The position numbers and the translations under genes are program-made. 52,366 bases of DNA, taken from the NCBI GenBank assembly GCA_003223555.1, contig QHVM01000084.1, positions 1 to 52,366 on the forward strand, given 5' to 3'. Shown here in pieces: positions 11,395-46,578 of this stretch. The notes beneath the pieces are model-generated. The model was given only the letters and a program-made list of their open reading frames with translations, ran no database searches and had not been told where the DNA came from. Each line of letters starts with the position of its first letter. Positions within the stretch are counted from its first letter, which is position 1. The DNA comes from Acidobacteriota bacterium (GTDB taxonomy: Bacteria > Acidobacteriota > Vicinamibacteria > Fen-336).

Positions 11395-11752
11395 GGGGGC
11401 GTCACGGTTTCGACGGGAACGTGACCCCGAGAGAGGCAAGCCGAGCGTGGCTCCCGGCTCGTAAATCCGGGGGTAAAACCATAGCTGCCAACGATAACTT
11501 GGCGCTGGCTGCCTAACTAGCTTAGGCAACCCGTCCTGCCGGTTGCCCGCTCACGGCGGCTGGACAGGACGTCACTGAGGTGAGCTGGCCCTGGCCCTCG
11601 GTCCGGGGGCGAAAGGCGAGACCAATCGGACTAGCTGTCGCCGGTTTCGTCCGGTCTTCACGGCGGCCGCGAAAATGCAGGCTGGACTAAGCTTGTAGGC
11701 TCTCTCGTCGGCGCTTTTTCGGACGCGGGTTCGACTCCCGCCGCCTCCACCA
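11395..11752 (+). ncRNA. ssrA: transfer-messenger RNA (tmRNA)
   Basis: Ribosome-rescue RNA that tags stalled proteins for degradation. The 5' end GGGGGCG pairs with CGCCTCC (11742-11748), including a G3-U70 wobble, the alanyl-tRNA synthetase identity element. CACGGTTTCGACGGG at the 5' end, GGGTTCGACTCCC (T arm, about 11727-11739) and encoded CCA (11750-11752) are all typical. The tag frame starts at GCC 11487 after ATAGCT and ends at TAA 11514-11516, encoding ANDNLALAA. With the charged Ala the tag is AANDNLALAA, one residue shorter than that of E. coli. Length of 358 bases is normal for a one-piece tmRNA. Confidence 0.97.
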
Positions 11753-45323: not shown

Positions 45324-45731
45324 CTACTTCGAGGACTTCTTGCCCGCCGTCTTCGCGGGAGCCTTGGACATCGCGGGGGCCTTCTCCAGCTTGATAGCGG
45401 TGACGTACTGATGCTCGCCCTTGTCGTTGTCCATGCAGGTCAGGGAGACCTTTTCGCCCGCCTTCAGGGTCTTGAGCCGGGCGACCGCCTTGCCGTGCAC
45501 GGGAGCCGTCTTCTCCTCGCCGTTGACCTTCACGGTGATCGTCTTGGCAGCGAAATCGGCGGAGACGACCTCACCCTCGACGGTGTGGGGCTTGAGCGCC
45601 GGCGCCTTGGCCGGAGCGGACGTCTTGGCCGTCGACTTGGAGGCCGGCTTGGAAGCCGACTTGGTGTCGGCGGCCTGCGCCGCGACGCCCGCCACCAAGA
45701 CCAGGGCCAGGGGCAAAAGGAACTTCTTCAT
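45324..45731 (-). CDS. small secreted Lys/Ala-rich protein with OB/SH3-like core
   Basis: 135 aa. Signal peptide MKKFLLPLALVLVAGVAAQAA; then a Ser/Ala/Lys/Pro-rich linker (25-48), a beta-rich core (HTVEGEVVSADFAAKTITVK, TAPVHGKAVARLKTLKAGEKVSLTCMDN, YVTAIKLEK) and a basic tail ending GKKSSK. The core has the DUF5666-like strand pattern of small exported barrels. The family is not firmly recognised. The start has AAGGAGAG upstream. A sigma-54 promoter and two palindromes lie upstream, so expression is probably conditional. The protein could be a small envelope binding protein. Confidence 0.75.
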   Translation of the reverse strand: MKKFLLPLALVLVAGVAAQAADTKSASKPASKSTAKTSAPAKAPALKPHTVEGEVVSADFAAKTITVKVNGEEKTAPVHGKAVARLKTLKAGEKVSLTCMDNDKGEHQYVTAIKLEKAPAMSKAPAKTAGKKSSK

Positions 45732-45793: not shown

Positions 45794-45808
45794 GCAATGC
45801 GGGTGCCA
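45794..45808 (-). promoter_or_regulatory. sigma-54 (-24/-12) promoter
   Basis: On the minus strand TGGCAC (45808-45803), 5 bases, TTGC (45797-45794). GG and GC dinucleotides are exactly 10 bases apart, as in the consensus TGGCACG-N4-TTGCW. The predicted start near 45783 leaves a leader of about 52 bases before the ATG at 45731. Confidence 0.7.
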
Positions 45809-45894
45809 GCCGGCCACCGCGGCGTTCCTGCGCTCAAGACCTTCTACACAAGCGTGTTGCGACGACGCGCCAATGGGCGAAGCGTGTGCGGGCT

Positions 45895-45908
45895 GCACCA
45901 TATAGTGC
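45895..45908. promoter_or_regulatory. palindromic upstream site 1, GCAC-N6-GTGC
   Basis: GCACCATATAGTGC. Centre about 118 bases upstream of the predicted sigma-54 start, where enhancer-binding proteins usually bind. Its arms match NtrC half-sites, but the spacer is 6 rather than 7. Confidence 0.55.
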
Positions 45909-45914
45909 ATGAGT

Positions 45915-45928
45915 GCACGATTTAGTGC
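45915..45928. promoter_or_regulatory. palindromic upstream site 2, GCAC-N6-GTGC
   Basis: GCACGATTTAGTGC. Same arms and same spacer length as site 1; centres are 20 bases apart, about two helical turns. Lies 3 bases from the stop of the neighbouring gene. Confidence 0.55.
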
Positions 45929-45931
45929 GAT

Positions 45932-46513
45932 CTACAAGCCGATCCAATCGAGGCCGTTCATCGCGTACTTCTTGATGTCCGCCTCGTATTTCCGGAAGAG
46001 GACGAGGTTTGCCGGCGGCACGCTCGCTTCGGCGGCGGTCCTGGCCCCGGCCGACCGGGCCGAGCCGGCTTCCCACGCCGTCTTGTAGATCTGCTGGACG
46101 ATGAAGCGGTATTCATCCTCGCTCATGCCGACGTCGGCCAGGGCCTGGGCCTGTGCGAGGCGCAGCTCGTTGATGAGCGCGAAGCCCTTGCGCACGTCGC
46201 CGAAGTCGGCCTGCTTCTTCTTGCTCATCGCGTCGAGCTCGTCCCGGTGGGCCTCGTACACGGCGTACACGCGCCGCCGGGCCTGGAGGAACTTCTGCAG
46301 GCGGTCCTCCGGGATGGCGCCGTCGCGAGCGGGAGTGAAACGGTTGGCGTTGGCCCTCCGCTGCAGCTCTTCGATCCGGTTCTGCTCCGAGGTGAGCTGG
46401 TGCGCCTTGTTCCTGGCCCAGAAGGCCAGCCCCCCGAGCCCCACCACGGCCGCGATGCCGCCGGCGATCAACGCGATGCCGCAGCCGAGGGCGATCTTTC
46501 CTCCCGTCCCCAC
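45932..46513 (-). CDS. single-pass membrane protein with coiled coil, unknown function
   Basis: 193 aa from GTG 46513, which has GGGAGG 6 bases upstream; ATG 46558 lacks a ribosome site. An N-terminal membrane segment (KIALGCGIALIAGGIAAVVGLGGLAFW) is followed by a charged helical region (SEQNRIEELQRRANANRFTP, RLQKFLQARRRVYAVYEAHRDELD). A conserved-looking C-terminal part ends YEADIKKYAMNGLDWIGL. Not recognised. It is divergent from the 46579 gene across 65 bases that contain TATATC/GATATA, possible back-to-back -10 boxes. Confidence 0.7.
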   Translation of the reverse strand: MGTGGKIALGCGIALIAGGIAAVVGLGGLAFWARNKAHQLTSEQNRIEELQRRANANRFTPARDGAIPEDRLQKFLQARRRVYAVYEAHRDELDAMSKKKQADFGDVRKGFALINELRLAQAQALADVGMSEDEYRFIVQQIYKTAWEAGSARSAGARTAAEASVPPANLVLFRKYEADIKKYAMNGLDWIGL

Positions 46514-46578
46514 GATCCGCCTCCCGTCCCGGAGGGAAACCGCGAAATCGTATATCATGGCCGTTCCGAGGAGGAGCG

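Follow-up and report, generated by a model that had tools for sequence, protein, structure and literature searches.

Related sigma-54 circuits

Sigma-54 is well established as a factor that serves the cell exterior (PMC3162934), and several described systems share parts of their layout with the locus reported here. The ZraSR-ZraP system of E. coli, which acts in zinc/envelope stress, has a very narrow regulon (PMC7657598). CorSR of Myxococcus xanthus joins a kinase to a regulator with receiver, Sigma54_activat and Fis-HTH domains and acts in metal homeostasis (PMC3707914). On the level of the operator, the NtrC box is a 17-bp sequence, TGCACCAnnnTGGTGCA, i.e. GCAC-N7-GTGC (PMC8743547), and the sites of FlrA-type enhancer-binding proteins (EBPs) in Desulfovibrio and Vibrio, yGTCA-N6-TGACr, are N6 inverted repeats upstream of a sigma-54 promoter (PMC4641369). 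Our literature search found no sigma-54 regulon described for Acidobacteriota.

The window analysed here, a stretch of 52,366 bp, is contig C137 of a 5.39 Mb genome (G000; Acidobacteriota, Vicinamibacteria). A switch had been predicted in it before the gene of a small secreted protein (Table 1). This switch is real and represents a newly described, conventionally built circuit. From the sequence comparisons below, we consider it likely that the window contains an RpoN promoter of a small lineage-specific regulon, in which a kinase-EBP pair encoded on contig C70 of the same genome controls secreted, probable OB-fold proteins. The finding is a new regulon built on a known plan.

As in E. coli glnA-type NtrC promoters, tandem GCAC...GTGC palindromes stand upstream of a TGGCAC-N5-TTGC element, and an NtrC-family response regulator is the candidate activator. 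However, the window sites are GCAC-N6-GTGC, one spacer base fewer than the NtrC box, as the first-pass annotation had correctly noted, and they fall outside the 17-bp definition. Moreover, the C70 EBP reaches 452 bits against a TIGR01818 cut-off of 558.6, and nitrogen genes are not among the regulated set. Because N6 repeats are known for FlrA-type EBPs, this spacing is unusual for NtrC yet not unprecedented. FlrA sites share with those of the window the N6 repeat and its place before a sigma-54 promoter, but their arm sequence differs and FlrA is a flagellar regulator.

The overall layout is reminiscent of ZraS-ZraR-ZraP, with a kinase, a sigma-54 EBP and a neighbouring gene for a small periplasmic protein together on C70, and with a predicted regulon that is likewise narrow. 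The window gene copy itself, however, does not lie beside the kinase-EBP pair, and the C70 target is located downstream on the same strand rather than divergently, with several paralogous targets. The EBP scores 419.8 against a ZraR cut-off of 760 and the kinase 195.3 against 479 for ZraS, whereas the target has no ZraP match in Pfam or NCBIfam and is predicted to adopt an OB-fold. EBP, kinase and target all fall outside ZraPSR; the system works like ZraSR-ZraP but is not a member. CorSR offers the same combination of a kinase with a receiver/Sigma54_activat/Fis-HTH regulator, but it controls a copper-tolerance gene cluster, and no metal transport genes were seen beside the targets here. PrsK/PrsR, with its RpoN-dependent PEP-CTERM genes, is also a sigma-54 two-component system for an exported-protein family. 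However, our EBP scores 418 against the PEP_resp_reg cut-off of 502.6 and our kinase 98 against 300 for PrsK; no PEP-CTERM signal occurs in the sequence of the window protein.

Table 1. Positions of the promoter, its putative operator sites and the associated genes (window positions unless a contig is given).
Feature	Position	Strand	Basis
sigma-54 -24/-12 element TGGCACCCGCATTGC	45794-45808	minus	exact match, conserved before most close homologues
Promoter-proximal putative activator site GCACCATATAGTGC (minus strand GCACTATATGGTGC)	45895-45908	minus	exact palindrome, conserved in G001 and G003
Promoter-distal putative activator site GCACGATTTAGTGC (minus strand GCACTAAATCGTGC)	45915-45928	minus	exact palindrome, 20 bp from proximal site
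Gene predicted to be regulated, 135-aa secreted protein	45324-45731	minus	ORF, alignments, AlphaFold model, Foldseek
208-aa membrane-anchored protein, neighbour and not regulator	45932-46558	minus	ORF; stop codon 3 bases from distal site
Candidate sensor kinase	L022:3457-4947 (G000:C70)		membrane-bound; HAMP, HisKA, HATPase
Candidate NtrC-type EBP	G000:C70:36946-38337		receiver, AAA+ with GAFTGA, Fis HTH
rpoN	G000:C138:181977-182450		PF04552, E 1.3e-63
tmRNA gene	11395-11752	plus	tag ANDNLALAA

The sigma-54 element and its tandem palindromes

With TGGCAY-N5-TTGC as the strict sigma-54 pattern and reversed patterns as controls, the minus-strand TGGCAC-N5-TTGC element was recovered exactly where the first-pass annotation had placed it. 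It is the sole perfect match in the window, carries GG at -24 and GC at -12 with the correct spacing, and would set the transcription start of the small-protein gene at about 45783. The proposal depended on the presence of rpoN and of EBPs in the genome, and both were found, the former as a single gene and the latter as 24 full-strength Sigma54_activat matches. The strict pattern occurs at 35 sites in the genome and at 3 in the reversed controls, so most of these sites are probably real promoters.

Upstream of the element lie the two GCAC-N6-GTGC palindromes, each of 14 bp. Their centres, at 45901.5 and 45921.5, are exactly 20 bp apart, as had been claimed, and lie 93 (proximal) and 113 (distal) bp upstream of the -24 element. 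The distances of 118 and 138 bases given previously are correct when counted from the predicted transcription start; the ATG at 45731 is farther away, at about 170 and 190 bases from the centres. By itself, the number of strict palindromes in the window (5 seen, 1.45 expected) is mildly unusual and constitutes weak evidence. In first-order simulations, a strict palindrome falls into a given 100-bp stretch with a probability of about 0.0026, and 3.7 Mb of such simulated sequence contained no pair spaced by 20 or 21 bp.

The secreted protein and its neighbour

The small-protein gene has a good Shine-Dalgarno sequence, and its product consists of a signal peptide, an Ala/Lys/Pro-rich linker and a predicted OB-fold domain (about residues 47-115). 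In the AlphaFold model, this OB-type domain is built from five strands and one helix (strands 47-59, 64-69 and 72-78, helix 82-86, strands 94-101 and 107-115) with a local pLDDT of about 90. The best Foldseek match of the model is CusF (1zeq; E 3.9e-3, TM to target 0.66), with SilF also close. On the sequence level, the Pfam CusF_Ec match is sub-threshold (18 bits, gathering 27), and a search against solved structures returned weak similarity to ribosomal S17, itself an OB-fold, alone.

As modelled, the protein resembles the periplasmic metal chaperones CusF and SilF in being small, predicted to be exported and probably of an OB-type fold. The copper ligands of CusF are His, Met-x-Met and Trp. 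Both Trp and MxM are absent from the sequence of the 135-aa protein, and so is, by consequence, the CusF copper site. Instead, Cys99, Glu106 and His107, which lie in the motif LTC-x-DN-x-KGEH, recur in many of the aligned homologues, and no efflux genes were seen adjacent. We conclude that this is probably a secreted OB-fold protein with the shape of CusF but without its copper ligands. The three recurring residues would fit a metal or some other ligand in the periplasm, and binding of such a ligand is perhaps the role of these small proteins.

Homologues were found in 10 of 60 sampled related genomes. Within G000, the window gene has paralogues on C70 and C126 and, distantly, on C29. In two distant paralogues (L021 on C29 and L020 on contig C471 of G001, the other species of the window's genus in the sample), a sigma-54 site precedes the matched segment by about 110 bp but palindromes are missing, so another EBP may control these two genes.

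The 208-aa protein encoded upstream has no Pfam or NCBIfam match. It apparently has one membrane segment, and in three genomes its gene occupies the syntenic position before the target gene; its C-terminus is conserved in G001 and G003.

A candidate activator on contig C70

The gene order on C70 is sensor kinase, EBP and then a paralogue of the window gene. An EBP also directly precedes a small-protein gene at G005:C55 and G010:C88, where it is 79-84% identical to that of C70. At G008:C20, the C-terminal part of an EBP does so, the contig ending inside the EBP gene. At all four loci, the tandem sites extend over the final codons of the EBP gene (L022:6200-6340 on C70), which means that EBP tail and operator must co-evolve. 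The peptides encoded by this operator-overlapping tail are sequences such as SAPEGAPGAPKGA. When every EBP-like locus of G000 was inspected to about 1.5 kb on either side of its activator domain, two full tandem palindromes were present at C70 only; the other relaxed pairs beside these loci are imperfect, and the reversed control gave 7.

EBP orthologues in G006, G011 and G013 have neither the sites nor an adjacent small protein, and these genomes are also devoid of close small-protein homologues. The G009 orthologue lies away from the small-protein gene, whose promoter has a weak site only. This orthologue (G009:C3:135190-136539) stops earlier and has no operator-bearing tail; directly after it comes an xseA-like gene. 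G001 has a kinase of 91% identity whose gene runs into the end of its contig, so the absence of the EBP there is probably due to an assembly gap. Based on synteny and the proximity of the sites, the two-component NtrC-type EBP of C70 is the candidate, and probably the activator, for the window promoter.

The pair could, however, serve only its own neighbour. The regulon would then be a genuine sigma-54 regulon in which a different EBP binds the GCAC sites of the window, the C70 EBP being dedicated to the GCCCC-type gene beside it. The C70 sites of G000 are indeed a GCCCC-N4-GGGGC variant and differ from those of the window in the third base of each arm (GCCC/GGGC), and the genome offers 23 other strong EBP matches. 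In G003, a 590-contig assembly, no orthologous kinase or EBP was found despite two promoters with GCAC-type palindromes and a sigma-54 element (C264, C310); either the assembly lacks the activator, or a different EBP acts in this genome. Nevertheless, we regard a different EBP as rather unlikely. The sites at the EBP 3' end are mostly of the GCAC type in G005, G008 and G010, and in G001 a GCCCC-type paralogue occurs alongside a GCAC-type gene, as in G000, so that both forms look like one motif. In addition, among the EBP loci of G000, two full tandem palindromes are confined to C70.

Conservation and spread of the promoter architecture

The matched start of most close homologues is preceded by TGGCAY-N5-TTGC within about 60-110 bp, and the majority of the genes with this element also possess GC[A/C]C-N6-G[T/G]GC-like sites farther upstream. 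The tandem spacing is 20 bp in the window and G001 and 21 bp in C70, G005, G008, G010 and G003:C310. This keeps the paired sites in helical register, as in an EBP enhancer, whose tandem palindromes stand about 70-200 bp before the promoter. In the syntenic trio of the window, G001 and G003, the proximal site, the distal CGTGC half and the C-terminus of the upstream gene align. The proximal site reads GCACCATTTGGTGC in G001 and GCACGATTCCGTGC in G003, whereas the distal site keeps its CGTGC half in the same 20-bp register, the other half being degenerate. Conservation of the sites and the -24/-12 element does not extend to the DNA that separates them.

We then combined both elements into one pattern (GCAC-N6-GTGC, 60-90 bp, then TGGCAY-N5-TTGC) with its reversed form as control. 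Across 17 genomes of the order, this yielded 6 matches and none in the control, and all 6 precede the small-protein family. Among 193 genomes of the class, there were 9 matches and 3 in the control: 6 in the window's own family (14 genomes), each before the small-protein family, and 3 in the 179 others. The latter (G119, G136, G184) stand before unrelated genes at the rate of the reversed control and look like background. A relaxed pattern matched exactly three times in G000 (C70, C126, C137), always at the small-protein family, with 4 control matches; outside this family, its matches are background no better than the reversed control. As a signature on its own, the strict tandem pair does not discriminate (1 match in G000, 1 in the control).

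The palindrome-promoter arrangement is thus above chance because it is conserved before one and the same gene family. Since the rate outside the window's family equals the control, the sequences indicate that the combination is real and, as far as the data go, limited to one family of bacteria. The predicted regulon as found comprises one small-protein family only. The expectation attached to the first-pass annotation that both palindromes and -24/-12 element are retained in orthologues was borne out and extends to paralogues. Its central proposal, a sigma-54 promoter with an NtrC-class activator, gains support from rpoN, the abundant EBPs and the conserved promoter and palindromes.

Alternatively, the palindromes might bind no activator and instead form RNA hairpins that terminate or process the transcript at the 3' end of the upstream gene. 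They begin 3 bases past its stop codon, and the minus-strand RNA folds somewhat better than shuffled sequences (z -1.9). We searched for a terminator-like site and found none, the EBP-adjacent copies lie inside coding sequence, and the spacing of the pair and, roughly, its distance to the sigma-54 element are kept across loci with unrelated upstream genes; a hairpin function is therefore very improbable. Equally remote is mere chance, in which a GC-rich genome yields such motifs and homologues share them by descent of recently diverged upstream DNA: the strict pair gives about one control match per genome and the relaxed pattern matches at control rate in several genomes, but the sites and the -24/-12 element are conserved where the DNA from one to the other is not, matches recur in paralogues with different upstream genes, and in the strict combined search they separate 6 to 0 from the control and stay family-restricted in 193 genomes.

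Proposed mechanism

In the RpoN circuit that we favour, the membrane kinase would sense a condition that is probably periplasmic or of the envelope, and would phosphorylate its NtrC-type response regulator, the C70 EBP. EBP dimers would bind the tandem 16-bp NtrC-like palindromes on one helix face; our proposed site consensus is about TGC[A/C]C-N6-G[T/G]GCA, with sites 20-21 bp apart and about 70-135 bp upstream of -24. The EBP would then oligomerise and loop to sigma-54 RNA polymerase at the -24/-12 element, where isomerisation would open the promoter. The products would be secreted, probably OB-fold proteins, of which G000 has three such paralogues. We infer binding, phosphorylation and signal from the established biology of NtrC-family activators, and the binding of the window's sites by the C70 EBP and the role of the protein are likewise inferred.

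More tentatively, and against our own leaning, the locus could be a ZraPSR-like envelope-response system that arose independently in one acidobacterial family. Such a system would be distinguished by NtrC-like N6 sites, by several paralogous secreted OB-fold effectors whose Cys/Glu-His metal site binds a new ligand, and by co-evolution of EBP tail and operator.

Operator, promoter, target family and candidate kinase-EBP pair are thereby concrete enough for in-vitro tests. The N6 operators form a natural counterpart to NtrC-type operators with N7 spacers, and the locus offers a way to learn what these small secreted proteins of soil bacteria respond to.

Many of the other strict sigma-54 sites among the 35 in G000 stand before genes whose beginnings look like those of short secreted proteins or lipoproteins, and one is followed by a gene like that of a type IV pilin (C72:52640). 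These genes suggest that RpoN of this acidobacterium has a large regulon of the exterior type. When the window was scanned with Rfam, the tmRNA gene was the only match.
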